Shown here: one piece after another, positions 2,072 to 32,686 of the stretch
Layout of the letters: each line of letters begins with the position of its first letter
Position numbering within the stretch: the first letter of the stretch is position 1
Source of the DNA: Calditrichota bacterium
GTDB taxonomy: Bacteria > Calditrichota > Calditrichia > RBG-13-44-9 > J042
Direction of reading: 5' to 3'
Assembly: GCA_013150955.1 (NCBI GenBank)
Contig: JAADJD010000061.1
Span: 1-32,686, forward strand
Length of the DNA: 32,686 nucleotides
Notes under the pieces: model-generated
Told to the model about the DNA's origin: nothing
What the model saw: the letters and a program-made list of their open reading frames with translations, nothing else
The model's database searches: none
Made by a program: the position numbers and the translations under genes

Positions 2072-2169
2072 CTTGCCCGTGAACCCTCCTGAAATTTTAC
2101 CCTGGCTCTTACACTGGCCTGAAAATCAAGCCGTTTAATCGGTTCAACCTTTACCGGGCTCTCCGGCAT

Positions 2170-3255: not shown

Positions 3256-3506
3256 TCTTCGCCCTCCTCTAATTCGTCCAGAGCAGAGATTTGTTTTAGA
3301 TACTCAAATACCTGCCGGGCTTCCTGCTCATCCACCACACTAATGGCAAACCCCACGTGCACCATCACATAATCCCCCACCTTTGCCTCCGGTACATACG
3401 CCAGATTCACTTCTTTAACAATGCCTCCAAAATTCACCTTGCCGGTGCGGAAGACGGGATCGTCTCCCTGAATGCTTTCGATTTTACCGGGAACGGCCAG
3501 ACACAC
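3252..3506 (-). CDS. hypC: Hydrogenase maturation chaperone HypC, GTG start
   Basis: HypC carries the iron precursor with HypD and delivers it to the hydrogenase large subunit. Function requires Met1 followed directly by Cys2. The frame extends upstream to a TTG at 3536, but the GTG at 3504-3506 gives [10 protein letters not shown], puts Cys at position 2, and has AGGAGG seven bases upstream. I therefore take GTG as the start, for 84 residues. His50 in VMVHVGFAI is the second conserved metal-ligand region. The acidic tail (LDELEEGEE) overlaps the start of hypD. A 175-bp gap without a gene separates it from hypB. Confidence 0.95.
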
Positions 3507-3681
3507 AGGTAACCCTCCTTTTGCTTTGATCTTCAATTTCTCAAACAGACCCGTTCCGGGGACAGTTCACCAACGCAGCGTTTCCCCCAATCTATCCGCA
3601 GTCGTCGTTTGCATCATCCCGTTGCAGGAAAAATTCGGCCTATTTTTTTCCTTGTTCTTTCCCTTCATTCGAGCGATTCAG

Positions 3682-4341
3682 CTACGCGGTCGATTTGGGG
3701 ATTAGCGACTCCAACCACCGAATCCAATCCTCCAGCCCCTCCCCCGTGCGTGCCGACAACTCAAAGAACCGCAAATCGGGGTTGATGCCACGGGCATAAT
3801 CCCGGGCCTTTTGAATGTCAAAATCCACATAAGGAAGCAAGTCAATCTTGTTGATGACGCACACATGGGCCACCCGGAACATGGGTGGATATTTTAACGG
3901 CTTATCATCTCCTTCGGTGGTGCTGATAATGACCACCTTCAGGTTTTCTCCCAGGTCGTAGTTGGCCGGACAAACCAGATTGCCTACATTTTCGATGAAC
4001 AGCAGATCCAGCGCATCCAGTTCAAAATTTGCCACGGCTTCCTGCACCAGATTGGCTTCCAGATGGCACCCCCCACGGGTTACCACCTGAACAACCGGCA
4101 CGTGGTGTTTGGCAATTCGCCGGGCATCGTTGTCGGTCTGGACATCCCCTTCCACCACGGCCACACGATAACGATTGGCCAGCTTTTCCAGCGTGCGTTC
4201 CAGCAACGTGGTCTTTCCAGCACCAGGAGAACTTAATAAATTCAAGACCGTTAAATTGGCCTGTTTAAAGCGCTGACGATTTTCGGCCGCAATGTCATCG
4301 TTTTTCTTTAAGATCTTGCGTTCAACGGTTAATACTTTCAT
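3682..4341 (-). CDS. hypB: Hydrogenase nickel-insertion GTPase HypB
   Basis: HypB is a SIMIBI-class GTPase that works with HypA to insert nickel into the large subunit. The 219-residue protein starts at the ATG overlapping the hypA stop (ATGA). The longer upstream extension in this frame runs through hypA and is not real. Motifs are a P-loop GAGKT (40-44), GGCH with Cys92-His93 and Cys124 in NLVCPAN (the G-domain metal site), and guanine-specificity NKID (164-167). It lacks the N-terminal CxxCGC motif and the His-rich nickel-storage stretch, so it is the minimal form. It is probably translationally coupled to hypA. Confidence 0.96.
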   Translation of the reverse strand: MKVLTVERKILKKNDDIAAENRQRFKQANLTVLNLLSSPGAGKTTLLERTLEKLANRYRVAVVEGDVQTDNDARRIAKHHVPVVQVVTRGGCHLEANLVQEAVANFELDALDLLFIENVGNLVCPANYDLGENLKVVIISTTEGDDKPLKYPPMFRVAHVCVINKIDLLPYVDFDIQKARDYARGINPDLRFFELSARTGEGLEDWIRWLESLIPKSTA

Positions 4342-4682
4342 TCTTCCACCTCCAGTTCGCTGACCTGCAATTCCTGTCCCTGAAGCAAATGAACCCGGGT
4401 ACTTTCGCAAAAAGGGCAGATAAAAAATGGTGTTTCCGGCGAAAATTCCCGTCCACAGGCCTGACAGACGGCGCGTACGGGCACGGTCTGAATCACCAGT
4501 TCCGAATCCCCCAGTTCGGTACCTTCGGTAATTGCGCGATAACAAAATTGAAGCGACTCGGGCACTACAGCCACCAGCTCGCCAATCCGGACCACCACTT
4601 TCAGTACCCTGTGGGCTTTCTGTTCCTGCAACACCTCTTCCACAATCTGAACAATACTCTGCGCCACCGACATCTCGTGCAT
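4338..4682 (-). CDS. hypA: Hydrogenase nickel metallochaperone HypA
   Basis: HypA delivers Ni(II) to the hydrogenase large-subunit precursor. The 114-residue protein begins MHEMSVAQSIVQ, keeping His2 and Glu3 of the nickel site. It has the structural zinc site Cys73-x2-Cys76 and Cys89-x2-Cys92 (VCQACG, ICPFCE). It is the first gene of the hyp operon. The ribosome site is weak (GTGGATG). The 174-bp region up to 4856 separates it from the divergent maturation protease and must contain both promoters, but I could not assign convincing -35/-10 boxes. Confidence 0.97.
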   Translation of the reverse strand: MHEMSVAQSIVQIVEEVLQEQKAHRVLKVVVRIGELVAVVPESLQFCYRAITEGTELGDSELVIQTVPVRAVCQACGREFSPETPFFICPFCESTRVHLLQGQELQVSELEVEE

Positions 4683-4856
4683 GGTTCATCCACTTTCCCT
4701 GTTTTCTGTATACATATTAATCAATCCGGGAATAAAAAAAAAGAGCCTTTTATCCGCAATTCCCTTTTCCCGGGATCTTTCCCTTCCGCAACCGGGGGGC
4801 TTGTGTTGAACGCCCGGAATGCGTAACTTGAACCCAAAAACAATGGCGAATGGCGT

Positions 4857-5321
4857 ATGGCACAAAAAAAGACGCTGGTACTGGGCATCGGAAACATTTT
4901 GATGGGCGACGAAGGCATTGGGGTTCATGCGGTGCAATATCTGGAAAGGCACCATGCCCGGCCGGATGTGGATTATCTGGACGGGGGTACCGGTGGTTTC
5001 CATTTGATGGAATATTTTCAATCCTACGATCATGTGATCCTTATCGATGCCACGCTGGATAATCAGCCTGCGGGAACCATTCAGGTGCTGCATCCTCGAT
5101 TTTCCAGCGACTATCCTCCCACTTTGACGGCTCACGACATTGGTCTGAAGGACATGCTGGATGCGATCCATCTGTTACAGCAGCAACCGCGCATTACGCT
5201 GGTGGCCATTTCCATCCCATCGCTGGGGGCCTTGTCCACAGAACTGTCTCCCGAATTGCAACAAAAACTTCCGGAAATCGCCGACACCGTTCTCCGGATT
5301 GTGTCCGAGTCCTCGGGGTAA
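4857..5321 (+). CDS. hyaD: [NiFe]-hydrogenase maturation endopeptidase (HyaD/HybD/HupD family)
   Basis: This protease removes the C-terminal peptide of the hydrogenase large subunit after nickel insertion. The family fold is evident in VLGIGNILMGDEGIGVHAV (8-26), and the nickel-sensing ligands are at Glu19, Asp64 (LIDATLD) and His93 (TAHDIG). At 154 residues it has normal length. It is the only hydrogenase gene on the plus strand and diverges from hypA. Its likely substrate is the large subunit encoded at 6449-8170, which keeps a cleavable 15-residue tail after DPCxxCxxH. No Shine-Dalgarno sequence is obvious before the ATG. Confidence 0.94.
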   Translation: MAQKKTLVLGIGNILMGDEGIGVHAVQYLERHHARPDVDYLDGGTGGFHLMEYFQSYDHVILIDATLDNQPAGTIQVLHPRFSSDYPPTLTAHDIGLKDMLDAIHLLQQQPRITLVAISIPSLGALSTELSPELQQKLPEIADTVLRIVSESSG

Positions 5322-5391
5322 ATCGGTTCCCTTCTCGACGGCAAATAAAGCCAAAGGTTTCAGACACATCCCGGGCCCAACCCCCATTCAA

Positions 5392-5439
5392 CCCAGATTA
5401 CGCAATAGACCCCGAATGACACGAATGAACACAAATAAA
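5392..5439 (+). repeat. Extra left arm of the dispersed repeat
   Basis: A solo left arm (CCCAGATTACGCAATAGACC, then CGAATGACACGAATGAACAC) sits directly before full copy R2, as a tandem duplication of the arm would. Confidence 0.8.
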
Positions 5440-5604
5440 CCCAAATTATGCAATAAACCGCGAATTACACGAATTAACACCAATAAAAATAGTAAAATGC
5501 ACTTGATTCTTTCTGGATGAAAATGTTTTCCAGGATATATTCGCTATTTTGTTGATTTTTTTCGAATTCATTCGCGTGATTTATGGTTTAACGCTTTATT
5601 TGGG
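5440..5604 (+). repeat. Dispersed 165-bp palindromic repeat, copy R2
   Basis: Full copy, exactly 165 bp like R1, from CCCAAATTATGCAATAAACC to CGCTTTATTTGGG. The core TTCTGGATGAAAATG gives plus orientation. The left arm shows CGAAT-N4-CGAAT phasing. Confidence 0.9.
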
Positions 5605-5703
5605 ATTATTTAAGTTCAATCCGTTCTGGGGTAAAGATGCGGATTTGCTTACTCGCTTCACCCCGGGTGATTCGTTCTGTGGTGCTTTTGTTTGAGTTCA
5701 TAC

Positions 5704-5736
5704 AAAAAAGCCCCGCCGGGTGGACGGGGCTTTTTT
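5704..5736. terminator. Bidirectional intrinsic terminator after the hydrogenase operon
   Basis: A perfect 12-bp stem, AAAAAAGCCCCG (5704-5715) with CGGGGCTTTTTT (5725-5736), closes a 9-nt loop. It lies 17 bp beyond the stop of the cytochrome b gene on the minus strand, where the U-run is formed by the complement of the A-run. It can also stop plus-strand transcripts reading through from the maturation protease gene. Confidence 0.93.
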
Positions 5737-5752
5737 CAAACCCGGGACGGGG

Positions 5753-6436
5753 CTACTCCACACTCTCCTTCTCCACAAATTTCCAGCCCCCCACCATGGA
5801 AGAGGTGGTTCCACGGGCTTCCACGTAATCATGATAAAAGACCAGGTATACGTGGATCATGGCCACGATAATGAAAAACCACATCATGATGTGATGCCAC
5901 TGGCGGACGGCGAAATCGCCTCCCATCAGGGGAACCACCCAGGCAAACAAATTCGCCAGCCAGCTGTGACTCATGGCCGCATACATGCCAAATCCGGTAA
6001 ACACCTGAAACAGAAACGCCAGGAAGAGCAGAAAATAGGTGAATCCCGCCAAGGCATTATGGCCAATGGATGGCAACGGCTTCTCCCGAATCTGCAAAAT
6101 GTCGATGCGCAGAACATCCAGAATTTCCTGCCACTGCTTCCGCGTATAGGGAATGAAATTCTTCCAGTTGGCATACTGGTTACCCACGAATCCCCAGTAA
6201 ATCCGAAACAGAAAGTTGAAGAAAAATATGTAGGCAAACAGAAAGTGGAGAAACCGCACCGTTCCAAACCAGTACTGAAAGGACGCTTCCGCATTGGTTT
6301 TAATCGCCAGCGGATTCCCGATCAAATATCCGGTTGCTGCCAGCACCAGAATACTCACAAAATTGATCCAGTGGTAAATGCGGACTGGCATTTCCCAGAC
6401 GTAAACCCGTTCGACGGTATTTTTCTTTTGCTTCAT
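5753..6436 (-). CDS. hyaC: Hydrogenase b-type cytochrome subunit (HyaC/HupC/HupZ family)
   Basis: This membrane diheme cytochrome b anchors the periplasmic hydrogenase and passes electrons to the quinone pool. In 227 residues there are four hydrophobic segments (about 20-42, 60-82, 128-152, 178-202). The start motif VYVWEMPVRIYHWIN is typical. Candidate heme ligands are His22, His64, His181/182 and His195. The gene follows the large subunit at 12 bp with AGGAGG eight bases before its ATG and ends just before a strong terminator, so it is the last gene of a three-gene operon. Having a membrane cytochrome fits a respiratory uptake hydrogenase. Confidence 0.93.
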   Translation of the reverse strand: MKQKKNTVERVYVWEMPVRIYHWINFVSILVLAATGYLIGNPLAIKTNAEASFQYWFGTVRFLHFLFAYIFFFNFLFRIYWGFVGNQYANWKNFIPYTRKQWQEILDVLRIDILQIREKPLPSIGHNALAGFTYFLLFLAFLFQVFTGFGMYAAMSHSWLANLFAWVVPLMGGDFAVRQWHHIMMWFFIIVAMIHVYLVFYHDYVEARGTTSSMVGGWKFVEKESVE

Positions 6437-6448
6437 CGCCAGCCCCTC

Positions 6449-8170
6449 CTACATAAAGGTTACTTGATGCAGATGTTCACCGTTGGGATCGTACAGGTGC
6501 ACCGCACAGGCGATACAGGGATCAAAAGAGTGGATGGTACGCAGAATTTCCAGCGGTTGCTTGGGATCCGCCATGGGGGTTCCAATCAGGGACGCCTCGT
6601 AGGCGGATCGCTGGCCTTTGGGATCGCGGGGAGAAGCGTTCCAGGTGCTGGGTACCACCAGCTGATAATTGGCTATCTTCTTGTCTTTGATGACGATCCA
6701 GTGCGCCAGTGCACCGCGAGGCGCTTCCGTAAAGCCCACCCCTTTGGCCTCTTTCGGCCAGGTATCGGGATCCCATTTTTCGGTGTTTGCCATGCGGGTA
6801 TCCCCATTTTTAATATTGCTCATCAGCTGGTCATAGAATTCTTTCATCCAGTGGGCTACCAATCGGGTTTCCAGTCCGCGAGCCGCGGTGCGTCCTAATG
6901 TGGAGAACAGTGCCGTAATGGGCGCATTCAATTGACCCAGTGCCTCGTGGACCACTTCTTTCACATCCTCCCGCCCACTGGCATAAGCAACCAGCATTCG
7001 CGCAAGGGGACCGACTTCCATGGGATGATCTTTCCAGCGCGGTGTCTTCAACCAGCTGTATTTGCTATCCACATTCAGGTAATCGTACGGCGGTTTGGGA
7101 CCGGTGTAATTGAATTCCGTTTCCCCTTCCCATGGATGCAGCGATTTGTCATCACCCACGCTATATTTGTACCAGGAATGGGTAACATATTCACGCACCT
7201 GATCGGGATCATCCCCTTTCACTTCATGGACTTCATTCAGGTTGCGATTTAAGATGGCCCCCCGCGGGAATTTGTAACTGGAAGGATCGTTGTAGCCATT
7301 TGTGGGCAGGTCGCCATAGGCCAGATAATTCTTTAACCCACCACCAATGGCAAACCACTCTTTGTAGAAGGAGGCAATCGCCAGAAGATCCGGTAAATAA
7401 ACCTGCTCCACAAAATCAATGGCATCATTGATCAGAGTTCCCACATAGGCCAGGCGCTCGGCATTAATGGCGTTGGCATCGTCCAGGTTAATGGCGCAGG
7501 GGGCACCCCCAACCAGATAATTCGGATGCGGATTCTTTCCACCAAAGATGGTATGCACTTTTACGATTTCCTTCTGCCATTCCAGCGCTTCCAGATAGTG
7601 GGCCACAGCCAGCAAATTGACTTCTGGAGGTAATTTGTATGCCGGATGTCCCCAGTAGGCATTGGCAAAAATCCCCAGCTGTCCGCTCTCCACAAATGCC
7701 TTTAAACGATCCTGCACGGCCTTAAAATATTTGGGGGAGCTTTTGGGCCAGCTGGAAATTTTGCGGGCAATGCTGGCCGTTTCGCTGGGATTGGCCTTCA
7801 GGGCACTGACCACATCCACCCAATCCAGAGCATGCAGGTGATAAAAATGCACCACATGGTCCTGCAAATACTGAGCACAAAACATTAGATTGCGCACCAG
7901 CTCCGCATTGGGAGGCACGGTAATGCCCAGGGCATTTTCCACCGTTCGGACGGAAGCCAATGCATGCACCGTGGTGCACACACCACACGCTCGCTCGGTA
8001 AATGCCCAGGCATCGCGCGGATCCCGTCCTTTCAAAATAATCTCGAATCCCCGGACCATGGTCCCCGAGGAAAAGGCATCCACAATTTTACCATTCTTTA
8101 ATTCGGCTTCTATGCGTAAATGGCCTTCAATTCGCGTGATGGGATCAACAACGATACGGGTAGCCATCAT
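6449..8170 (-). CDS. hyaB: [NiFe]-hydrogenase large (catalytic) subunit, group 1
   Basis: The subunit holds the NiFe(CN)2CO site and oxidises H2. The four nickel cysteines are Cys62 and Cys65 (ERACGVCTTVH) and Cys552 and Cys555 (DPCIACAVH). His558 marks the maturation cleavage point, leaving a 15-residue tail (LYDPNGEHLHQVTFM) to be removed by the HyaD-type protease. The 573 residues fit group 1 enzymes. Two in-frame ATGs lie together at the start. The second (8165-8167) is better spaced from AGGAGG, so the true protein may begin MATRIVVD. The start overlaps the small-subunit stop, implying coupled synthesis. Confidence 0.97.
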   Translation of the reverse strand: MMATRIVVDPITRIEGHLRIEAELKNGKIVDAFSSGTMVRGFEIILKGRDPRDAWAFTERACGVCTTVHALASVRTVENALGITVPPNAELVRNLMFCAQYLQDHVVHFYHLHALDWVDVVSALKANPSETASIARKISSWPKSSPKYFKAVQDRLKAFVESGQLGIFANAYWGHPAYKLPPEVNLLAVAHYLEALEWQKEIVKVHTIFGGKNPHPNYLVGGAPCAINLDDANAINAERLAYVGTLINDAIDFVEQVYLPDLLAIASFYKEWFAIGGGLKNYLAYGDLPTNGYNDPSSYKFPRGAILNRNLNEVHEVKGDDPDQVREYVTHSWYKYSVGDDKSLHPWEGETEFNYTGPKPPYDYLNVDSKYSWLKTPRWKDHPMEVGPLARMLVAYASGREDVKEVVHEALGQLNAPITALFSTLGRTAARGLETRLVAHWMKEFYDQLMSNIKNGDTRMANTEKWDPDTWPKEAKGVGFTEAPRGALAHWIVIKDKKIANYQLVVPSTWNASPRDPKGQRSAYEASLIGTPMADPKQPLEILRTIHSFDPCIACAVHLYDPNGEHLHQVTFM

Positions 8171-9303
8171 TCACCTCCTTCCTTTTTTTCGGTCGAGGTG
8201 GTGTTTTCGGGCAGGCTATTCTCAATATTGGATTTAATGAGTTTGCGTTTGCGGATATTGGTGGAGATGGCATGTGCAGCTATGCCACCCAGGGTAATCG
8301 CTCCAACGATGGTTCCCACCCGATCGGCTGTGGTCTCGATACCAAAGCCCGGAAAGGAAGCCAGATGCCGATAAAACGGGCCATTATCCCAGAAGTTCTC
8401 TTCGCTGCACCCAATACAACCATGACCCGATTGAATGGGATAACTGACCCCATTGTTCCATTTGATAATTCCACAGGAATTGTAGGTCACCGGGCCCCGG
8501 CATCCCATTTTGTACAGGCAATAGCCTTTTTTGGCGTTTTCGTCATCCCAGGATTCCACAAACAATCCCGCATCGTAATACGGCCGACGATAGCAGGAAT
8601 CGTGAACCCGTTTGGAATAGAACGCCTTGGGACGACCCAGCCCATCCAGCTGGGGTAAGCGTTCAAAGGCCAGGACGTGGATGATGACCCCTGCCATCAC
8701 CTCGGCAATGGGGGGACATCCCGGGACTTTAATGATGGGCTTACCGGACACCACTTTGTGCACCGGCGTGGCACCGGTGGGATTGGGATTGGATGCCTGA
8801 ATACATCCGTTGGACGCACAGCTTCCCCAGGCAATGATGGCCTTGGCACCTTCGGCCGCTTCCCGGACAATGTCCAGCGCGGTGCGTCCACCAATCGTAC
8901 AATAAATGCCCCCATCCTTTGTGGGCACCGAACCCTCCACGGTCATGATGTATTGTCCGTGGTACTTTTTCATGGTCTCGTGAAGGGCTTCTTCTGCCTG
9001 AAATCCCGCTGCAGCCTGCAACGTCTCCGTATAATCCAGCGATATCCGATCCAGAATGATGTCCGCTACAATCGGATGCGAAGAACGCAGAAACGATTCG
9101 CTACAACAGGTACATTCCTGAAAATGAAACCACACCACCGGGGGACGGGGCTTGGTCTCCAGTGCCTTCACCACGGCAGATATACCACTGGAATGAATCC
9201 CGATAGCTGCCGAAATATAGGCACAAAATTTCAAGAAGTCCCGCCGTGAGTATCCCCGCTCCTGCATCTTTTCCCAGAAGGTAGGTAGGGCTTTGTCGGG
9301 CAT
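8167..9303 (-). CDS. hyaA: [NiFe]-hydrogenase small subunit, Tat-exported, six-cysteine (O2-tolerant type)
   Basis: The small subunit carries three Fe-S clusters from the NiFe site to the cytochrome. A twin-arginine signal (SRRDFLKF, 19-26) exports the folded dimer to the periplasm. The proximal-cluster region reads ECTCCSES (Cys64, Cys66, Cys67), SCASNGC (Cys162, Cys167) and PGCPP (Cys196). Ordinary enzymes have Gly at the positions of Cys66 and Cys167, and both extra cysteines are known to create the [4Fe-3S] cluster of O2-tolerant group 1d enzymes. Distal cluster ligands are His234, Cys237, Cys262 and Cys268. Medial ligands are Cys277, Cys296 and Cys299. A C-terminal helix (about 328-348) anchors it. 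AGGAGG lies six bases before the ATG. Confidence 0.96.
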   Translation of the reverse strand: MPDKALPTFWEKMQERGYSRRDFLKFCAYISAAIGIHSSGISAVVKALETKPRPPVVWFHFQECTCCSESFLRSSHPIVADIILDRISLDYTETLQAAAGFQAEEALHETMKKYHGQYIMTVEGSVPTKDGGIYCTIGGRTALDIVREAAEGAKAIIAWGSCASNGCIQASNPNPTGATPVHKVVSGKPIIKVPGCPPIAEVMAGVIIHVLAFERLPQLDGLGRPKAFYSKRVHDSCYRRPYYDAGLFVESWDDENAKKGYCLYKMGCRGPVTYNSCGIIKWNNGVSYPIQSGHGCIGCSEENFWDNGPFYRHLASFPGFGIETTADRVGTIVGAITLGGIAAHAISTNIRKRKLIKSNIENSLPENTTSTEKKEGGE

Positions 9304-9819: not shown

Positions 9820-12609
9820 TTATTTGACCAGCACCATGCGCTTCAAATCTGAAAACGATCCTGCAGACAGGCGATAGAAATACACCCCGCTGGGAACGAC
9901 CTGTCCACTGTTGTCCCGTCCATTCCACCACACGCTGTAACGTCCCGGTTGATGAAATCCCTGCACCAGTCGGGCAATCTCTCTTCCCTGCACATCATAA
10001 ACAATCAATTGGACATCGGCGGCCCTGGGTAACTCAAATTCAATCCGGGTGGAAGCATTAAACGGATTGGGATAATTCTGCTTCAACTGAAACTGACGAA
10101 CGGTCTGCACCGGTTCTTCCTCCACTTTCACCACGGACACATTAGTGCTGAACACGCCGTTGCCGTGGGTAGCGGCAACCACCAGGCCATCTTTCGGACG
10201 GGACACAATCATATCCACCACCGCATAACCGATAGTGGTGGGCGCTTCCAGCTCCCAGACGGTGTTGGGCCCGTTCAATTGGGCTGTGGAATACACGCCG
10301 CGAGAGGTTCCCACAAAATAGACGGTGGCATTCTCCAGGGGCACAATCTCTGCCCAGCGTACAGAAGGCCCGGCACCCGTCCCATCGGGATTTTCTTCCA
10401 GATTTCCACTGATATTCTCCCAGGTGCTGCCGCCATCGGTGCTGCGCCACAGACTGATCACATTGTAATTGGAAAACACCACAATCAACTCGTTGCCGTC
10501 CTGGGGATTCACAGCAATGGAGTTGATGTAACCGCCGGGAAAATCCGGCCCGGTAATCTCCACCGGTGTGGGATCTCCCGTATGGGCATTGTCCAGCCGG
10601 AAAACCTTCCCCAGACTGGTGCCGTAGTACAATCGATGCGCCGGTCTGATATTGGTGGCTTCCAGGGCGGTAATGGAACCATTGCTTAAAACTGTATTGG
10701 ACAATTTCTGCCAGTTGGTGGAGGTGGGATTTTGCTGAAAAGAAGGAATCTGAGTCAGGTCACTGTTGCGCCAGATGGCATCCCAACCGGCGTAGTACAT
10801 GATTTTCGAAATCTTCGCATCCAGAATAAATGGATTGATGAAAAGGTGATCGGTTACGCCTGCCGGATCCACCTGAGCCCAGGTCAGCCAGCCGCCACTG
10901 CTGTTCAGCGTGACCCGAAAGACGGTACCATTTTGCCAGGAAAAGTAGTAATATTTCTTCCCCGGTGCGATGGCGCAATGGCCACCATCGCCGCCCAGCT
11001 GTTTTTGCCAGTTCGCAGTGGCAGAAACCGTGGTTACCCGCCAGGTACCATTGTCCTGCATGCCCCCAACCAGCTCCGAATCCCCGTGCGCCGAGGTGTC
11101 CAGCGCAATGGTGTAAAATTGCGTGGTGTAATAGCCCCGGTTTAACGAGGCCCACACCACCGTTGATGCCATCACGTTCTCGGTGACACTAACGCCACCA
11201 TCGTGTCCGGAAAGCAATTTGGAGGAATTGGAGGGATAAAACACCAGCGCATGTTGATCGGGATGATGGTTGGGATACCAGCTGTAATCTTTCTTGCTGG
11301 CATTATAGCCACCAATCCAGCGATAGTTTCCACTGGTGGCGAATCCATCTTCGGAAATATACAGGTTGGTGCCCCCGATTAGCACCACATTTTCGTTATC
11401 CGGTTTAACTTTGATGACCAGATTATATGAGGACTGGGAATCGAAATTCTCCACCGGTGCATTGCTATTGTACGGCAGGTTGTTGGATCGATTTTCCCAC
11501 TGTCCCCCGCTTCCACTCCCATCGCCGCTGATGTAGGTGTATTTCCACAGGCTGTGGCCGTTCTTTCCAGAGCCGGGAGTGTCGCCCAGAAAATACACCA
11601 CGTTTTCGTTGGATGGCGCAATGCCAATGACCACCCGGTTGTATGTGGCAGGCCAGCCGGAGGGGGTTATATTCACCCAGTTGATCCCATCCGTCGATCG
11701 CCAAACGCCCTTTTTGTCCCCATCGCTACTCAAGGTGGCATAAAGCACCCCGGTGGAGGTGATGGCCACATCCACGTATCGGGAATAATTCGATTGGCCG
11801 GATATCAACACCGCCTGCCAGGAATTGCCTCCATCGGTGCTGCGCCAGATCCCCCCGTAAGTGGCCGCATAAATTTCATCCTCGCTGGTATTAGAAACAT
11901 CGATCACCAGATTCCAGACGTAATCAAAAAAATTATCGAAAGTTTGCGGTCGACGGGTGGAGGTTGCGGGCAAAATAAACCAGGTCTTTCCGCCATCCAC
12001 CGATTTAAAAATGCCATCGCCCCGGTAGGGATCGGCCATTAAACCCGCGCTGTTTCCACGAAGTTCCCCCGTCCCATAGTACCAGATGTGCGTCTTACCC
12101 GGCCGGGTATCCTGAACCAGGCAGGTGACACTCTGCAAAGTATCGGGAATGGTGGTGCGCGTCCAGCTATTGCCACCATCGGTGGAACGCCACATGCCGC
12201 CGGATACGCCACCGGCCAGGATGATGTTCTCATCGGTGACATCCAGTGCCAGTGCCCGTGTGCGGCCACCCAGATTATACGGCCCGCGACCCGTCCAATT
12301 GGACACCACCACCTGTTGAAATTGCCCGCCTTTCTGAAACCGTAACAGCGGATACCCATCTCCCCGAACCGGAAGAGTTTTCACGTAGGCCAGCTCTCGT
12401 TCGCGGATGTCATCGGGAATCCGGCCTGTTTGAGGATCCTTCAGGCGCTCCATTTCAAAACGAATCCGTGCCTGCGGATCATCTTTTGTGCCCACACTGG
12501 CCTTATGCGACGGTTTACGTACCGTCTGCGTCATTTTCCGGTCGGATTGCCAGATCAAAAACATCATCAAAAAAACCACACTGACCACATAAAAAAGAAT
12601 CCGCTTCAT
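9820..12609 (-). CDS. Secreted BNR/sortilin-like repeat protein with T9SS type A sorting domain
   Basis: This is a large exported protein of 929 residues. An N-terminal hydrophobic segment (about 4-20) serves as signal peptide. The body is a beta-propeller of the VPS10/sialidase type with Asp-box motifs such as STDGGNSW (first at 142-149), SVDGGKTW and STDGGSTW. The last ~88 residues form a Por-type sorting domain: QNYPNPFNASTRIEFELP, a GREIARLV strand, SGVYFYRL and a final KRMVLVK. It should cross the outer membrane through the type IX secretion system and be surface-attached or released. Its ligand or activity cannot be told. No neighbour is functionally linked. The stop codon abuts repeat R3. 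Confidence 0.9.
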   Translation of the reverse strand: MKRILFYVVSVVFLMMFLIWQSDRKMTQTVRKPSHKASVGTKDDPQARIRFEMERLKDPQTGRIPDDIRERELAYVKTLPVRGDGYPLLRFQKGGQFQQVVVSNWTGRGPYNLGGRTRALALDVTDENIILAGGVSGGMWRSTDGGNSWTRTTIPDTLQSVTCLVQDTRPGKTHIWYYGTGELRGNSAGLMADPYRGDGIFKSVDGGKTWFILPATSTRRPQTFDNFFDYVWNLVIDVSNTSEDEIYAATYGGIWRSTDGGNSWQAVLISGQSNYSRYVDVAITSTGVLYATLSSDGDKKGVWRSTDGINWVNITPSGWPATYNRVVIGIAPSNENVVYFLGDTPGSGKNGHSLWKYTYISGDGSGSGGQWENRSNNLPYNSNAPVENFDSQSSYNLVIKVKPDNENVVLIGGTNLYISEDGFATSGNYRWIGGYNASKKDYSWYPNHHPDQHALVFYPSNSSKLLSGHDGGVSVTENVMASTVVWASLNRGYYTTQFYTIALDTSAHGDSELVGGMQDNGTWRVTTVSATANWQKQLGGDGGHCAIAPGKKYYYFSWQNGTVFRVTLNSSGGWLTWAQVDPAGVTDHLFINPFILDAKISKIMYYAGWDAIWRNSDLTQIPSFQQNPTSTNWQKLSNTVLSNGSITALEATNIRPAHRLYYGTSLGKVFRLDNAHTGDPTPVEITGPDFPGGYINSIAVNPQDGNELIVVFSNYNVISLWRSTDGGSTWENISGNLEENPDGTGAGPSVRWAEIVPLENATVYFVGTSRGVYSTAQLNGPNTVWELEAPTTIGYAVVDMIVSRPKDGLVVAATHGNGVFSTNVSVVKVEEEPVQTVRQFQLKQNYPNPFNASTRIEFELPRAADVQLIVYDVQGREIARLVQGFHQPGRYSVWWNGRDNSGQVVPSGVYFYRLSAGSFSDLKRMVLVK

Positions 12610-25037: not shown

Positions 25038-27170
25038 TTATCCCTTGCCAATCGTCTTCAATGAGGGGAAAAAGAACAACCGCTTCTGAACCAGTGCCTT
25101 CAGGAGAATTTCCACGTCCAGCAACAGGGACTGGTTCTTCATATAAAACAGGTGGTATCGTTCCATATCATCCGGGATTTGAATTTTTTCCCAGTTCAAT
25201 TGAACCAGTCCGGTAATTCCCGGTTTGTACCAGTATTCGGGGTGAGCCCGGAGGGATGCTTCCGGCGGAAAGGGTGCCCCCACAAAGGAGAGCTTCCCCC
25301 GAAAGATCTCCCAGATCAACAACCAGCGATTCAGTCCCCATTCCGGACGGAACTCATCGATTTGCAGGATGGTTTTTTCTCCTTCTGGGCCAAAATGAAA
25401 GGAAATCCGCCGAATGCGAGACCAGCGGAAGATTAGCAGCGGCAGCAGCACCGGCGCAGCCAATAGCAAACTTAAGCCAGAAAGTCCGATGTCAAAACTT
25501 CGTTTCACAAAGCGATTGAACGGCCGCCCGATGGCGTAATCGATTTCCAGGAAGGGATAATCATCCAGCCGTTCGATGGTGGATTTGCCGATCATAAATT
25601 CGGAGCTGGAAGGCACCATTTTAAATTCCACGCGTGGATCTCGAATCTGGCTCATGGTTCCCAGTATGTGCTCGTAACTCAACGCATCGGTGGCAAAAAT
25701 GACCTGCCGAATGCGGTGAATGCGAATCAATCCCGCCAGGTGATCCAGCGTTCCCAGCACCGGAATATCCGAACGTCCGGGGAATTCCTCCGCATCGCTG
25801 ACCAGAATTACTCCCAGCAATTCGTAGCTCAAATCGCGCATATCACGAATCTTATAATACAAATCCACCACGCCCTGACCATTCCCCACCAGCACCGTGG
25901 GTTTGCTGAACCAGTCGCGTCCCCAGGCGGAACGATCCCCGCTGTAATACCGCTTTAAAATGATCCGCCAGGTAATCATGGCCAGGGGGGAGAGCATTGC
26001 CGCAATCAACACCACCATTCGCGAAAAAGCAAACTGCTTGAGGAAAAACGTTAAGGACGCCAGAAGCAAAAAGGTAATAATGTTGGTTTTGATGATCTCC
26101 TGCACGGACAATCGATGATGCGGATACACCTGCAAATAAAAGGCCGTGCCCAGAAATATGATGGTCGAAATGGCGTGAATGACCCAGTAGCCGGCAAAAA
26201 AGTCCTCCCACCGAAAACCATGCTTAAATTGCATGCGCACGTAAAACGAAAACAAAATGACCAGATTCAAAATCAACACATCCACCAACAATGGGAAATG
26301 TTCCTGGACAAAATTTTTCAGGTAAATAAACACGCCCCGTAAGATAATCCCCAGCACAATCAACCAGCGCACAAAAAAGACGGTGCGGTGGGCATAGTAT
26401 TTCCGGAAAAACTGATAAAGCGCCTTGTTAAACGTAATGACGTAGTCAATGTTGTTTTTCTTTGTGCTTTCCCCTTTGTAATGAATGATCTGGGTGGTGG
26501 GCACGTAGTAAATTTTGTGTCCCGCCTGATTGATCCGGTGGCACAGATCGATGTCCTCGCAATACATGAAGAATTGTTCATCAAAATAGCCCACCTCATC
26601 CAGCACCGATTTTTTAATCATCATGAACGACCCGGAGATGGCGGGAACGGTGTAGGTTTCGTCGGGATTCAGGTAGGTAAGATTGTATTGCCCGAAGATT
26701 CGGCTGCGGGGAAACAATCGGCTGAGTCCCACCACCTTCCAGAAGGCAATCATGGGTGTGGGGATGCTGTGGCGGCAATCAACGGAAAAGGTGCCATCGG
26801 GATTGATGATCTTGCAGGTGGCTGCACTGGCATCCGGATGCGCTTCGAAAAACGCCAGTAATTGGGTGAAGGTATCCTCCTGCACCACCGTATCCGGATT
26901 AATGATGACCACATATTCGCCCTGAACCTGTTTCAAGGCCAGGTTGTTCGCCCGTGCAAACCCCAGATTCACCGGGCTTTCGATTAACTTGACCTGGGGA
27001 AATCGCTTTCGGATGTAGGCCACACTGCCATCCACGGAAGCGTTATCGACAACAAAAATCTCATGCGGGATGGTTTTCAGCGCCCGCTGAAGGGAGATCA
27101 GCGCCTGTTCCAGATATTCCTTCACATTATAATTCACAATCACCACCGATATTTTCGGGCGATTCCCCAT
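25038..27170 (-). CDS. GT2 glycosyltransferase fused to CoA-binding-like and degenerate WbaP-type PGT domain
   Basis: A 710-residue membrane protein. Residues 1-260 are a rhamnosyltransferase-like GT2 domain (VVIVNYNVKEYL; VVDNASVDGS; NPDT at 91-94 as the metal/nucleotide motif; CEDIDLCHR). Next come about five hydrophobic segments (265-400). A Rossmann CoA_binding_3-like domain follows (PTVLVGNGQG, 424-), then a PGT-like domain from about 550 (KRSFDIGLSGLSLLL, GKLSFVGAPFPPE, KPGITGLVQLNW). In active monotopic PGTs this region contains LDELPQ with the catalytic Asp-Glu; here it reads LNRWLL (Asn614, Arg615). The PGT part is therefore probably not catalytic, while the GT2 part looks intact. 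It is 9 bp after the companion fusion gene. Confidence 0.85.
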   Translation of the reverse strand: MGNRPKISVVIVNYNVKEYLEQALISLQRALKTIPHEIFVVDNASVDGSVAYIRKRFPQVKLIESPVNLGFARANNLALKQVQGEYVVIINPDTVVQEDTFTQLLAFFEAHPDASAATCKIINPDGTFSVDCRHSIPTPMIAFWKVVGLSRLFPRSRIFGQYNLTYLNPDETYTVPAISGSFMMIKKSVLDEVGYFDEQFFMYCEDIDLCHRINQAGHKIYYVPTTQIIHYKGESTKKNNIDYVITFNKALYQFFRKYYAHRTVFFVRWLIVLGIILRGVFIYLKNFVQEHFPLLVDVLILNLVILFSFYVRMQFKHGFRWEDFFAGYWVIHAISTIIFLGTAFYLQVYPHHRLSVQEIIKTNIITFLLLASLTFFLKQFAFSRMVVLIAAMLSPLAMITWRIILKRYYSGDRSAWGRDWFSKPTVLVGNGQGVVDLYYKIRDMRDLSYELLGVILVSDAEEFPGRSDIPVLGTLDHLAGLIRIHRIRQVIFATDALSYEHILGTMSQIRDPRVEFKMVPSSSEFMIGKSTIERLDDYPFLEIDYAIGRPFNRFVKRSFDIGLSGLSLLLAAPVLLPLLIFRWSRIRRISFHFGPEGEKTILQIDEFRPEWGLNRWLLIWEIFRGKLSFVGAPFPPEASLRAHPEYWYKPGITGLVQLNWEKIQIPDDMERYHLFYMKNQSLLLDVEILLKALVQKRLFFFPSLKTIGKG

Positions 27171-27179
27171 TGCTCCCCC

Positions 27180-29672
27180 TTAAAACAGCCTGACCCGCCG
27201 TTGAATTAATAATAAAATACTGCGGATGATGATTTGAAAATCCAGCCGGAGTGAAAGATTCTCGATATAATAGATGTCCGATTTAATGCGCTCTTCCAGA
27301 TACTTTTGCCCGGATTCGTACCGATAACGTACCTGAGCCAGGCCAGTTAATCCCGGCCGCACAAACAATCGCCGATGCAGAAACCGAAACCGCTGCTCGT
27401 TGCGCCGATACCAGTCGGGCGACTCTGGCCTGGGGCCCACCACACTCATTTCACCCTTCAAAATGTTGAAAATCTGGGGGAATTTGTAAAACCGTGTTCG
27501 AAACAGGAATTTTCCCAGCGGCGACAGGCGAGAAGCCCGACCTTCTCCAAAATAATACCGCTCCGGAATTTGCCGCCCCATTCGGAAAACGTACAATCGA
27601 AACGGCTGACCAAATTTTCCCAGGGCCGCCACCGAGGTCACCGGAAAGCGCTTAAACTGCCAGGAGATCAACCCCCAGGCACCCAGCACCAGCGGAACGT
27701 TAATGACCAGATTCACCAGGGCAAACAGGATGTCGAAGCCGCGTTTCACAATCCACTGCCAGGGCACCATACGCTCCGGAAAAACCCGCGTCAGCGAATG
27801 GTCATCCACTGCAGAGCGTGATCCAGACAACAAATGATGCAATGCGGGCGTGGTCTTCATCACCACATGAAAGCGATCGCAAATGCTGATGATGTTTAAC
27901 AAATCCGTACGGGAATTTTCCGGTACGGCAATGATGATTTCCTCGATGCCCAGCTGCTGAATCAGGTTCGGCAAATCCCGGTACTCCCCCAGAATGGGCA
28001 ACCCCTCAAACTCGTGCACGCTGCCCTTCTTTTTGACCACGATCCCCTTCACATCATACAACAAATGCGGATTGTTGCGAATGTCCCGCAACAGATTCCT
28101 GGCCTGACGGGTAGCCCCGATTAACAGCGTATTTTTCATAGAGTATTCGAATATGCGTTTGCGCTTCTCCAGTTCGATGATTCCCAGCCGGCCTCCATTG
28201 ACAAAAACCACCATACAAAACCAGTAAAACACCAGAGTGGTTAGCTGGGATGCATTCAGCGGACTGGACGGATCCGTGGTCAAAAATCCCACCAGCACAA
28301 TCCCGAAGGTAATGACGCGGGTGACTCGCAGAGTTTTTTCGAACCGCCCAACATCCCAGGGCATGCTGTACAGCCCATTCAACCAGAACAGTAACACCCA
28401 CCCAATGGTGAAAAACAAAAACACCGGATCCATTAAATAATCCTGCAACGCCCGGATGGTAAACCGGGAAACCCATCCCGATTGAAACTTAAACCAGTAG
28501 GTGAAGTAAAGCGCCAGATTCACCGCAACGAGATCGGATAAAAAGATGAACACCTGGTGCCACAATCGATTCAAATGCAAGGGGGGCGCCTGGTGGGTCT
28601 GACCCGGCTGGACATCCAGCTTTGGATACCGCCGGTAGGCTTCCATGTAACCCAGTCGCCGTGCCCAATAAATAGAGGTCACAAACGTGATCGTGAACAA
28701 CACATAACCGGTAACCTCCAGGTACACCACCATCAACACCCCCAGCACCATGTAGAAAAACGCCACAACATACAGGAGCCAGACGGTGTGCAGATGAGAT
28801 AATCCCAGTTTCAACAACCGATGATGCACGTGTTCCTTATCCGGTTTAAACGGACTCTCGCCCCGTCCCAGACGTCGGAAAAATGAAATCAACGTATCGG
28901 TAACCGGAACCCCAAGCAGTACCAGCGAGGCCAGAAAATACACCTGATGACTGCGCGCCACGCGTAAAGCCTCGATCGAAAAAAAGGCCAGCAGGTAGCC
29001 CAGCTGCAAGCTGCCCACATCCCCCATAAAAATTTTGGCCGGATGATAGTTAAAGCGAAGAAATCCCAGCACGGCGCCAATAGCGGAAATTGAAAGGATC
29101 AATAAAAATAAATTGTGTTGAAGGTACGAGATGATGGCAAATCCAATGAGTGCAATAAGGGAAATGCCACCGGCCAGGCCATCCAGACCATCCAGGAGAT
29201 TCAGGGCATTGATAATAAAAATAATCCACAACACCGTAAAGGGATAAGCCAGCCAGCCGAGGTTCAGGGTGGCTCCTCCGGGACTCACAAACGCCTCGAT
29301 GACACATCCCCCCAGCACAATCAGGACAGCAGCCATAAATTCTCCCAGAAACTTTTGCCAGGAGGACAGTCCCACAACGTCATCCAGCGCGCCGGTAAAC
29401 ACAATCGCCAGCCAGCCCACAAAAAAATAATAGTGGGTTATCCACACATCCCAGGGAAGGATTCTTAAGCCACTGGCAACGATCAAAGAAATGAGAATGG
29501 CCAGAAAAATACCCAATCCACCCAGGACGGGTTTAAACTCCTGGTGCATGCTGCGCGCCGTGGGAAACGAACCAATCCGATACCGGTACGCGACCATGCG
29601 ACAGCAATGAACCGCTAACAGAGCGGCAACCAGCGAAATGGCAAACGGAAGCACCAGGTTCATAAAATTCAT
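27180..29672 (-). CDS. WecA/MraY-type phosphoglycosyltransferase fused to degenerate WbaP-type PGT
   Basis: An 830-residue membrane protein. Residues 1-335 are a polytopic GPT (WecA/TagO-like) that links a sugar phosphate to undecaprenyl phosphate: ALDDVVG (Asp97, Asp98), NALNLLDGLDGLAGG (155-169), GDVGS (217-221) and HVHHRL (281-286) are intact. Residues 370-500 add four or five helices, 512-620 a Rossmann CoA-binding-like domain (NTLLIGATRQ), and 640-830 a WbaP-like PGT with KRGFDILFAL, GEMSVVGPRPE and RPGLTGLAQV. The catalytic LDELPQ is FYKFPQ (Tyr729, Lys730), so this half is predicted inactive. A second ATG three codons in is better spaced from AGGGG. It precedes the GT2 fusion in one operon. 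Confidence 0.87.
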   Translation of the reverse strand: MNFMNLVLPFAISLVAALLAVHCCRMVAYRYRIGSFPTARSMHQEFKPVLGGLGIFLAILISLIVASGLRILPWDVWITHYYFFVGWLAIVFTGALDDVVGLSSWQKFLGEFMAAVLIVLGGCVIEAFVSPGGATLNLGWLAYPFTVLWIIFIINALNLLDGLDGLAGGISLIALIGFAIISYLQHNLFLLILSISAIGAVLGFLRFNYHPAKIFMGDVGSLQLGYLLAFFSIEALRVARSHQVYFLASLVLLGVPVTDTLISFFRRLGRGESPFKPDKEHVHHRLLKLGLSHLHTVWLLYVVAFFYMVLGVLMVVYLEVTGYVLFTITFVTSIYWARRLGYMEAYRRYPKLDVQPGQTHQAPPLHLNRLWHQVFIFLSDLVAVNLALYFTYWFKFQSGWVSRFTIRALQDYLMDPVFLFFTIGWVLLFWLNGLYSMPWDVGRFEKTLRVTRVITFGIVLVGFLTTDPSSPLNASQLTTLVFYWFCMVVFVNGGRLGIIELEKRKRIFEYSMKNTLLIGATRQARNLLRDIRNNPHLLYDVKGIVVKKKGSVHEFEGLPILGEYRDLPNLIQQLGIEEIIIAVPENSRTDLLNIISICDRFHVVMKTTPALHHLLSGSRSAVDDHSLTRVFPERMVPWQWIVKRGFDILFALVNLVINVPLVLGAWGLISWQFKRFPVTSVAALGKFGQPFRLYVFRMGRQIPERYYFGEGRASRLSPLGKFLFRTRFYKFPQIFNILKGEMSVVGPRPESPDWYRRNEQRFRFLHRRLFVRPGLTGLAQVRYRYESGQKYLEERIKSDIYYIENLSLRLDFQIIIRSILLLIQRRVRLF

Positions 29673-29840: not shown

Positions 29841-30338
29841 TTATTTTTCCTGATCCGGGGAATCGTCATCCAGCCGTTTCACGACTCTTGCCGGCACGCC
29901 GGCGACAATCGTCCGGGGGGGAACATCCCGGGTAACCACCGCCCCGGCTCCAACGATAGCCCCTTCCCCGATGGTGACCCCACATAAAATCGTTGCACTA
30001 CTGCCAATGCTGGCGCCTTTCCTGACGTAGGTGGGAATGCACACCCAGTCCTCTTCGGTTTGTAATCGCCCATCCTCGGTGGTGGCACGGGGATATTTGT
30101 CGTTAATAAAAGTAACGTTATGGCCAATAAAACAATTATCCTCGATGTGTACCCCTTCGCAAATAAAGGTGTGGCTGGAAATCTTACAATTCTTCCCGAT
30201 CGTTACGCCTTTCTGGATTTCCACAAATGTGCCAATCTTTGTATTATCTCCAATTTCGCAGCCATACAGATTCACAAATGCGTAAATCTGGACATTCTTT
30301 CCCAGTTTCACATCATCCGTAATATTAACGAACCTCAT
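29841..30338 (-). CDS. Left-handed beta-helix N-acetyltransferase (WbpD/WlbB-like)
   Basis: A 165-residue acyltransferase built of hexapeptide repeats (LGKNVQIYAFVNLYGCEIGDN, IGSSATILCGVTIGEGAIVGAGAVVTRDVPP, GVPARVV). The insertion FINDKYPRATTEDGRLQTEEDW resembles the loop of WbpD/WlbB, which acetylates the 3-amino group of UDP-GlcNAc3NA. Together with the oxidoreductase and aminotransferase upstream, this fits a 2,3-diacetamido uronate pathway. Other sugar O- or N-acetyltransferases remain possible. The ATG overlaps the oxidoreductase stop and has AAGGAGG before it. Confidence 0.85.
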   Translation of the reverse strand: MRFVNITDDVKLGKNVQIYAFVNLYGCEIGDNTKIGTFVEIQKGVTIGKNCKISSHTFICEGVHIEDNCFIGHNVTFINDKYPRATTEDGRLQTEEDWVCIPTYVRKGASIGSSATILCGVTIGEGAIVGAGAVVTRDVPPRTIVAGVPARVVKRLDDDSPDQEK

Positions 30339-31342
30339 AACAGAACCTCCTTGCCACGATTCTTAATCGATTTCTCCGACGCTTCCAGAATACGTACCAC
30401 CAGAAGCCCCAGTTCCCCACCGGAAATGGGGGTTGCCTTTCCCTGAATGCAATCCACAAAATGTTGCATCTCCACCGCAAGCGCCTCCGTCTGGGGAATC
30501 TTCGGGCAGTACATGTCGCCTGTCCGGTACTGAATCAGGGTATTGTAGATTTGATCCGTGGTCTGGATGACCTCGATGCCTTTGTCGTAAACCTTTACTT
30601 TTTCGCTGGGGGAATTGTCATCCCAGACAATCATCTTCCGGGTTCCGCTGATCAACGTCTGGCGAATTTTTACCGGAGACAACCAGTTTACGTGAATATG
30701 GGCGATGAGTTTTTCTGGATAGTAAACCGTCAAATAGGCCACATCCTCCAGCCCATTATCCAGATGATCGGAACCGGTGGCCACCACGGCTTCGGGCAAC
30801 TGATCGATCACATAATTCATGATCGAGATGTCGTGGGGTGCCAGATCCCACAGAACGTTGATGTCATGCTGAAACAGCCCCAGATTGACCCGCACCGAAT
30901 CAAAATAATACAAATCCCCGATCTCTCCACTGGAAACCAGTTCCTTAATTTTCTGAACCGCACCGGTAAACAAAAATGTATGATCCACCAGAAGGGTTAA
31001 ACCTTTCTGTTCAGCCAGATTGATCAACTCCTCCGCCTGCGCAGACGTGGAGGCCATGGGTTTCTCGATCAGGACATGCTTTCCCGCTTTAAGCGTTTCC
31101 AGAGCGATCTCATAGTGGGTAAAAACCGGGGTACAGATGGCCACCGCATCCACATCGGGGTGATGGATGACCTCCCGAAAGTCCCGGGTGGTCTGGATGA
31201 ATGGATACAACGAACGAATGTAATTCAACCGTTCCGGCTTTAAATCGGCACAAATCGGCACCGTGGTATGCGGATTGGCAATGAGGTTGCGCACAATGTT
31301 CGGTCCCCAGTATCCCACACCAATAACTCCCACTTTCAACAT
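30335..31342 (-). CDS. Gfo/Idh/MocA-family sugar oxidoreductase (WlbA/WbpB-like)
   Basis: A 335-residue NAD(P)-dependent oxidoreductase. The Rossmann motif GVGYWG lies at residues 8-13, the catalytic lysine Lys94 is in EKPMAST, and a substrate domain follows with WDLAPHDISIMNY. In WlbA/WbpB the enzyme oxidises C3 of UDP-GlcNAcA to make the 3-keto sugar. The following aminotransferase and acetyltransferase genes support this role, but the substrate is not shown. A 6-dehydrogenase (WbpA) is not in the window. It is coupled to the acetyltransferase by an ATGA overlap. Confidence 0.88.
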   Translation of the reverse strand: MLKVGVIGVGYWGPNIVRNLIANPHTTVPICADLKPERLNYIRSLYPFIQTTRDFREVIHHPDVDAVAICTPVFTHYEIALETLKAGKHVLIEKPMASTSAQAEELINLAEQKGLTLLVDHTFLFTGAVQKIKELVSSGEIGDLYYFDSVRVNLGLFQHDINVLWDLAPHDISIMNYVIDQLPEAVVATGSDHLDNGLEDVAYLTVYYPEKLIAHIHVNWLSPVKIRQTLISGTRKMIVWDDNSPSEKVKVYDKGIEVIQTTDQIYNTLIQYRTGDMYCPKIPQTEALAVEMQHFVDCIQGKATPISGGELGLLVVRILEASEKSIKNRGKEVLL

Positions 31343-31402
31343 ATTTCCTCTCCTTTTATAATAACCGTATCCTTAGAATTCATACATGAAATTACAAAAC
31401 AT

Positions 31403-32509
31403 TTACTTACAACGATAAAAATCACGAATAGAATCTACGACATACTCTATTTGCTCACGATGTAGTTCTGGATACATAGGCAAAGAAATAATTTCTTTCA
31501 TTACTTTCTCGGTGACCGGGAAATCCCCCTCTTTATAACCGAGATATTGATAAGCCTTTTGTAAATGCAATGGATATTTGTAATGGAAACCTGTAGCAAT
31601 ACCTTTATCTTTTAAGAACTGTTGTAATCTCTCGCGTTCTTTCACGCGAACCACAAAAAGATGGTAAACATGCCTGGCATATGGCATTTCACGTGGGAGA
31701 ATCACATTGTCAACATCTTTTAGCAATTCACAATAATAGGCCGCATTTCGACGACGGGCATCATTCCAATTCTCTAAATATTTAAGTTTAATATCTAATA
31801 CCGCTCCTTGGAAGCCCTCCATCCGCATGTTAAAACCTTCTATTTCATGAACATATTTCTCACGCGAACCATGATCCCTAAATTTACGTGCGTAATCCGC
31901 AATTTCATCTGAGTTCGTAGTCAACGCACCCGCTTCACCATAAGCACCCAAATTTTTTCCCGGATAAAAAGAAAATGCCGCAATATCCCCTATTGATCCG
32001 ACGTTTTGTTCTTTGTATTTTGCACCGTGTGCCTGGGCTGCATCTTCAATAACAAATAAATTGTAACGCTTGGCTATTTCCAAAATGGGATCCATATCAG
32101 CTGGTTGTCCATAAAGATGGACCGGTACAATGGCCCGGGTCTTCTTTGTTATGGCCGCTTCTATCTTTTCTGGATCCATATTATAGGAATCTTCTTCTAT
32201 GTCTACAAAAACAGGTTTCCCACCCGCAGCTGTGATTGCTTCTGTTGTTGCAATAAAAGTATTAGGTACTGTAATCACTTCATCTCCTGGTTGAATAATT
32301 GCTTTAACAGAGAGGTAATTTGCGGATGTCCCAGAATTCAAACCAATACAATGTTTTACACCGACATATTTTGAGAAATTTTTTTCAAATCGCTGAACAA
32401 AAGGTCCTAAAATAAAACTGGTATTTTCACATACCATTTCCAGTGAGGATAAAATTTCATCCTTAATTTGATAATATTGCGTTCTGAGATCAACGAATGG
32501 CACTTTCAT
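31403..32509 (-). CDS. DegT/DnrJ/EryC1 sugar aminotransferase (WlbC/WbpE-like), AT-rich
   Basis: A PLP-dependent sugar aminotransferase. The frame opens at a GTG (32515), but the ATG at 32507-32509, six bases after GAGGT, gives MKVPFVDLRTQYY and 368 residues, the common start. Motifs are GLNSGTSANYLSVKA, VIEDAAQAHGAKY and the PLP lysine in FSFYPGKNLGAYGEAGAL (Lys185 from this start). It would aminate the 3-keto sugar made by the oxidoreductase. Its third codon positions are visibly richer in A/T than every neighbouring gene, which suggests more recent acquisition. The 60 bp before the oxidoreductase is also AT-rich. Confidence 0.9.
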   Translation of the reverse strand: MKVPFVDLRTQYYQIKDEILSSLEMVCENTSFILGPFVQRFEKNFSKYVGVKHCIGLNSGTSANYLSVKAIIQPGDEVITVPNTFIATTEAITAAGGKPVFVDIEEDSYNMDPEKIEAAITKKTRAIVPVHLYGQPADMDPILEIAKRYNLFVIEDAAQAHGAKYKEQNVGSIGDIAAFSFYPGKNLGAYGEAGALTTNSDEIADYARKFRDHGSREKYVHEIEGFNMRMEGFQGAVLDIKLKYLENWNDARRRNAAYYCELLKDVDNVILPREMPYARHVYHLFVVRVKERERLQQFLKDKGIATGFHYKYPLHLQKAYQYLGYKEGDFPVTEKVMKEIISLPMYPELHREQIEYVVDSIRDFYRCK

Positions 32510-32686
32510 CTGCACACCTCACATTTTACATTCCACACAATTTAAACGTAAGGAATTAGAATTTAAAAAAGATTTATTCTTAATCATCATTAGAAAAATA
32601 TTTTAATCTTCTTAGAGATTCGAATTATATGCTAAATTATTCAACATTATCCAGCGTTTCAGTTGAAGATTTTCCCCAATATTAAA
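32510..32686. other. AT-rich region upstream of the aminotransferase
   Basis: Non-coding within the window and strongly AT-rich. It presumably carries the promoter of the polysaccharide operon or links to an upstream gene beyond the edge. No firm element can be called. Confidence 0.4.

Follow-up and report, generated by a model that had tools for sequence, protein, structure and literature searches.

The first step of bacterial surface-glycan assembly is carried out by phosphoglycosyltransferases (PGTs), of which the monotopic and the polytopic kind are regarded as unrelated to each other. The polytopic superfamily includes WecA, TagO and MraY (PF00953), whose known members are single-domain proteins (Table 1 of PMC10942596). 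The large monotopic PGTs WbaP, WcaJ and CpsE (TIGR03025, PF13727 + PF02397) consist of a four-helix membrane bundle, a Rossmann domain and a reentrant-helix PGT domain, in which an Asp-Glu pair is the catalytic dyad (PMC10519829). The WbaP chassis dimerises mainly via its Rossmann domain (DUF), which is also a binding site for uridine nucleotides, and WbaP is inhibited by UMP (PMC10942596). A large PGT of Myxococcus is activated by a response regulator that apparently favours its dimer, and the dimerising beta-hairpin of WbaP is absent from Myxococcus EpsZ (PMC12802240). The helix bundle and Rossmann domain also occur on a different catalytic domain in the PglF-like dehydratases, which resemble WbaP at the N-terminus (PMC10942596), and small monotopic PGTs are found fused to sugar-modifying and regulatory domains (PMC12802240).

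The gene product studied here, P1, resembles each of these systems in part. The fold of its N-terminal half is that of the WecA/TagO/MraY superfamily, complete and with every invariant catalytic residue, but, unlike the single-domain members, P1 carries an unrelated PGT module at its C-terminus. This module shows the complete domain order of the large monotopic PGTs, the closest solved structures being WbaP 8t53 and PglC 8e37, whereas it lacks the Asp-Glu dyad and several substrate-binding residues and sits behind a polytopic PGT. As in the PglF-like dehydratases, the helix bundle and Rossmann domain accompany a different catalytic domain, although the chassis of P1 still bears a recognisable, apparently inactive PGT domain; a CoA_binding_3 + Polysacc_synt_2 protein of the PglF-like type was detected in one Calditrichota genome. 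P1 shares with the small monotopic PGT fusions the joining of a priming enzyme to other domains, but it is a polytopic PGT fused to a decayed large monotopic one. Both families are known; the fusion, a phylum-wide pseudo-PGT and reciprocal decay of the two sites were not found described, since the searched, largely open-access literature contained no account of pseudo-PGTs, WecA-WbaP fusions or such decay. A 2021 PNAS network study of monotopic PGTs may list some of these fusions.

Domain layout of P1

The coordinates of P1, of its parts and of the adjoining genes are collected in Table 1. Three Pfam domains were matched above cut-off and in order along the single frame, namely Glycos_transf_4 (residues 82-234, E 4e-41), CoA_binding_3 (residues 474-598, E 9.5e-10) and Bac_transf (residues 643-822, E 1e-38), while the NCBIfam models for WecA (residues 12-341) and TIGR03025 (exopolysaccharide sugar-transferase, residues 379-825) both scored below cut-off. 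The original prediction that two unrelated PGT superfamilies are joined in one protein was thus confirmed, and the residue numbers and motifs it gave are correct.

Table 1. Features of the P1-P2 locus. Positions refer to the window, i.e. the whole stretch of 32,686 nucleotides that was analysed.
Feature	Position	Strand	Basis or remark
P1, 830 aa, WecA-type polytopic PGT fused to a predicted inactive WbaP-type large monotopic PGT	27180..29672	-	single open frame
P1 residues 1-345, polytopic PGT half with intact catalytic residues	28638..29672	-	PF00953, conservation, model
P1 residues 365-510, membrane bundle of four helices in the large monotopic PGT chassis	28143..28580	-	TIGR03025 379-825; Foldseek to WbaP 8t53
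P1 residues 511-632, Rossmann domain (CoA_binding_3; WbaP DUF equivalent)	27777..28142	-	PF13727; Foldseek to 3nkl
P1 residues 633-830, pseudo-monotopic PGT domain	27183..27776	-	PF02397, TM-score to PglC, dN/dS
Tyr729-Lys730 codons replacing the catalytic Asp-Glu	27483..27488	-	PDB alignment to PglC; Calditrichota alignment
P2, 710 aa, GT2 glycosyltransferase fused to a WbaP-type chassis with a decayed PGT	25038..27170	-	adjoins P1
P2 residues 1-250, GT2 catalytic domain	26421..27170	-	motifs NPDT and CEDID conserved
P2 residues 552-700, pseudo-monotopic PGT	25071..25517	-	active-site (dyad) segment deleted; KR..D and PGxTG kept
Hexapeptide acetyltransferase	29841-30338	-	upstream UDP-sugar modification cassette
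Gfo/Idh sugar dehydrogenase	30335-31342	-	upstream cassette
DegT aminotransferase	31403-32515	-	upstream cassette; cassette as a whole 29841..32515

Conservation of the two halves in Calditrichota

The P1 fusion was found in 35 of 40 Calditrichota genomes, near full length in 33 and cut by contig ends in the other 2. Its polytopic half was predicted to be an intact WecA/MraY-type domain, and this is supported by residues D97, D98, N155, N158, D161, D164, H281, H283 and H284, which are invariant in all 35 readable Calditrichota rows; D218 is kept in 33 of these rows and replaced by E in 2. The motif set DD, NxxNxxDGxDG, GD and HxHH is complete in P1. A full-length AlphaFold model returned pLDDT values mostly between 70 and 97 up to residue 320, with helices across residues 3-348 in a multi-helix membrane fold, while its C-terminal half was poor and could not be used because only four sequences covered that part. 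Besides P1, the window's genome encodes one other polytopic PGT, a 371-aa protein taken to be MraY, and exactly two polytopic PGTs are present in each of four further Calditrichota genomes. Therefore, P1 is probably the sole WecA-type (non-MraY polytopic) enzyme in these genomes. Other canonical monotopic PGTs occur in the same genomes, and the two observations together fit the loss of a redundant monotopic site.

The catalytic columns of the monotopic half were evaluated on the PDB alignment to PglC, whose numbering corresponds to the chain numbers minus 4. Tyr729-Lys730 of P1 aligns exactly with the Asp-Glu of LDELPQ, as had been predicted, and no displaced Asp-Glu pair was found near this position or elsewhere in the monotopic domain. 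The column reads Tyr-Lys in 34 of 35 readable Calditrichota orthologues and Asn-Arg in the remaining one, against Asp-Glu in 29 of 29 monotopic PGTs with a canonical site, a comparison set made up of unfused proteins, intact fusions and the mirror-image fusions described below. The original prediction named the loss of the dyad; the lesion is wider. Relative to the 29 canonical proteins, the window and its Calditrichota relatives have lost G675, Q681, R683, K695, M699, R724, D729 and E730, which include the equivalents of PglC Lys59, Met63, Arg88, Asp93 and Glu94, together with the Q-x-R motif. The window has V695, G699 and F724 in place of Lys59, Met63 and Arg88, whose equivalents are lost throughout Calditrichota except in single rows, the Arg88 position being Tyr or Phe in 29 sequences. 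In PglC, Arg88 and Arg145 touch undecaprenyl phosphate (PMC10519829), and a predicted pose places Met63 in contact with uracil (PMC12550135).

The fold positions KR..D, G..MS.VGPRPE and RPGxTGxAQ are kept in the same comparison. Within the 37 Calditrichota sequences from which the column counts were drawn, with readable rows varying by column, the reentrant-helix Lys-Arg (K643 and R644, PglC Lys7-Arg8) is kept in 36/36, P660 (PglC Pro24) in 30/36, and the equivalents of Arg112 and Arg145 in 35/35 and 32/35 respectively. Lys7-Arg8 and Pro24 set the reentrant helix of PglC, and Pro24 matters for polyprenol use (PMC6133551). These per-column counts therefore indicate that the monotopic half of P1 has retained its membrane-seating features and, as judged from sequence, has lost its catalytic centre. 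The Tyr-Lys column itself is among the top 16.5 percent most conserved of the domain, while the neighbouring former catalytic columns drift.

The dN/dS of the pseudo-PGT domain was 0.045 in the nearest pair and 0.08-0.13 in three other pairs, approximate values since two of the four pairs approach saturation at synonymous sites, and close to those of the active half. The pseudo half of P1 is under purifying selection, and a neutral remnant of recent origin is disfavoured both by these values and by the depth of divergence. A separate model of residues 371-830, whose alignment was supplemented with PGTs from viral contigs, gave a mean pLDDT of 82. In Foldseek comparisons the modelled PGT domain matched PglC 8e37 and 8g1n with a target-normalised TM-score of 0.77-0.78, and the whole modelled C-terminal half matched WbaP 8t53 with E 1e-18, with the four-helix bundle, the Rossmann DUF and the reentrant-helix PGT domain in the order of the large monotopic PGTs. 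A single-sequence scan of viral contigs returned no relatives of the P1 C-terminal half. The phylum-wide lesion, a dN/dS matching the active half's and the PglC-like modelled fold agree with the view that the C-terminal half is a retained pseudo-PGT.

Two irregular loci were also recorded. In genome G006 (locus L148) an in-frame TAG interrupts P1 in an otherwise conserved locus. Genome G008 holds two P1-P2 loci in one assembly (L144 and L147), the second of which is probably assembly contamination because it closely resembles the loci of another family (L146).

Fusions in other phyla and the history of the locus

Full-length fusions turned up in two further groups when 290 genomes from across the domain were searched. 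The fusion is present in 2 of 9 genomes of a small phylum (that of G235), and in a second phylum (that of G093, 245 genomes) 12 full-length fusions have two canonical sites, a further four fusions diverge in the N-terminal half and one is cut by a contig end. The intact fusions, 14 in the two phyla, all carry the Asp-Glu dyad (14/14) and the polytopic motifs (14/14). Four fusions (G337, G316, G329 and G368) are the mirror image of P1: their monotopic half is canonical, with IDEVPQ or IDEIPQ and KFRSM, and their polytopic half lacks D97, D98, N155, N158, D164, D218, H281 and H284. This N-terminal half is nevertheless clearly homologous, with E values from 3e-40 to 2e-60 against a profile from which it had been left out. 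A free-standing polytopic PGT accompanies the decayed fusion in three of the four genomes, two of which hold two; none was found in G368, a genome that is 77 percent complete. Proteins with WecA, helices and Rossmann domain and no PGT domain were found as well (L190-L194 and L274-L278, which are such WecA-type and GT2 fusions). The proposal that a pseudo-PGT was kept as a regulatory add-on for a polytopic PGT does not cover the fusions elsewhere, in which both halves look active or, in one lineage, the polytopic half is dead.

In the tree of each half, the unfused sequences are split off from all the fusions. The SH-aLRT support of the unfused side is 98 in the monotopic tree and 86 in the polytopic tree, where it includes the WecA-Rossmann proteins; this latter support for a single origin of the fusion is moderate and comes from 13 to 16 unfused or partly fused sequences. 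The mirror-image proteins cluster together and are nested with the intact fusions of their own phylum (100), and Calditrichota form one clade in the monotopic tree (100). The seryl-tRNA synthetase gene serS lies within about 120 bases after the fusion in the intact and mirror-image loci and directly after P2 in eight Calditrichota loci, and this shared neighbour supports one orthologous locus. The simplest history would start from an early two-headed enzyme in which each site was active; Calditrichota would then have lost the monotopic site, and one lineage of another phylum the polytopic site instead. We infer this direction of loss. The fusion may also have passed between phyla by horizontal transfer.

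Adjoining genes and the proposed role of the inactive half

P2 has a PGT domain more decayed than that of P1. Wherever a Calditrichota contig reaches far enough to contain both genes, they are adjacent, in the same order and on the same strand, and their frames usually overlap. Among the P2-like proteins outside Calditrichota, one has an intact LDELPQ (G187), several are decayed and others are devoid of the PGT domain; the phylum of G093 has a P2-like gene too, unlinked to the fusion. As both GT2 and WecA fusions occur with an intact, decayed or absent PGT domain, the helix bundle and Rossmann module looks like a portable chassis whose PGT domain is the part that decays. The upstream cassette suggests that an acylated amino sugar is part of the glycan product, and the gene for a Wzi-like outer-membrane protein, located beside most P1 orthologues, points to a capsule or exopolysaccharide.

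In the reading proposed here, the WecA-type half of P1 would transfer HexNAc-1-phosphate from a UDP-sugar to undecaprenyl phosphate, and the WbaP-type half would be a non-catalytic membrane chassis composed of four-helix bundle, Rossmann domain and reentrant-helix domain. If it behaves like that of WbaP, the chassis might dimerise the WecA-type half and sense a uridine nucleotide, so that the product UMP would restrain priming. P2, which is translationally coupled to P1, most likely performs the next step and, given the linkage and the shared architecture, P1 may pair with it through the common chassis and hand over the primed lipid. Of the roles originally proposed for the pseudo-PGT, the regulatory or dimerising one remains the most plausible, as a scaffold, because the equivalent module of WbaP dimerises and binds uridine nucleotides (PMC10942596). 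Presentation of polyprenyl phosphate is weakened, since the equivalent of Arg88, which binds this lipid, is Phe or Tyr in most orthologues, while those of Arg145, Pro24 and Lys-Arg stay. We regard as fairly probable the overall reading of P1 as a priming enzyme with a dead half serving as scaffold, derived from a two-headed ancestor that lost one site per lineage. The fuller proposal, in which reciprocal loss across phyla is combined with a product-sensing, dimerising scaffold physically coupling the P1 and P2 steps, is advanced tentatively, at somewhat less than even chances.

Alternatively, the monotopic half might have been repurposed, with Tyr729-Lys730 as a new active or ligand site that, for example, binds undecaprenyl phosphate or another phosphate and hands it to the polytopic half. 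The near-invariance of the Tyr-Lys pair amid drifting former catalytic columns would agree with such a site, as would the retention of the Arg112, Arg145, Pro24 and Lys7-Arg8 equivalents, Arg145 and Pro24 being important for polyprenol phosphate in PglC (PMC10519829, PMC6133551). However, the undecaprenyl phosphate contact Arg88, the uracil contact Met63, Lys59 and Q-x-R have all lost their equivalents, and one orthologue has Asn-Arg. Moreover, we know of no precedent for a mechanism with Tyr-Lys as nucleophile, and we consider a repurposed site unlikely.

The pseudo half might instead be a passive remnant, kept because its removal would destabilise the fused protein or the gene coupling. The GT2 and WecA relatives that have only helices and Rossmann domain demonstrate that the PGT domain can decay and vanish; yet its dN/dS in P1 matches the low values of the active half, the Tyr-Lys pair and many fold positions have stayed conserved despite deep divergence, and no Calditrichota P1 lacking the PGT domain was found save where a contig ends, which makes a passive remnant rather improbable. 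As many of the genomes are metagenome-assembled, two genes could also have been wrongly joined or a sequencing error could have altered the dyad. The same fusion with Tyr-Lys recurs across dozens of genomes, two of which (G004 and G039) were assembled as single contigs, and this refutes an assembly or annotation artefact, to which we assign a negligible probability.

Returning to the scaffold reading, the natural versions with both sites, only the first or only the second intact are a ready-made comparative series, which can show the role of the non-catalytic parts of large PGTs in dimerisation, UMP feedback and recruitment of the next enzyme, a question that the WbaP structure leaves open. 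Moreover, annotation based on Bac_transf or EPS_sugtrans matches will give the catalytic half a wrong name throughout the phylum.

Finally, two other regions of the window were noted. Positions 1001-9303 look like a [NiFe] hydrogenase operon that includes hyp maturation genes, as judged from the translations, and a gene at 9820-12609 on the minus strand encodes a 929-aa secreted repeat protein whose C-terminus resembles, by eye, a type IX secretion sorting domain.
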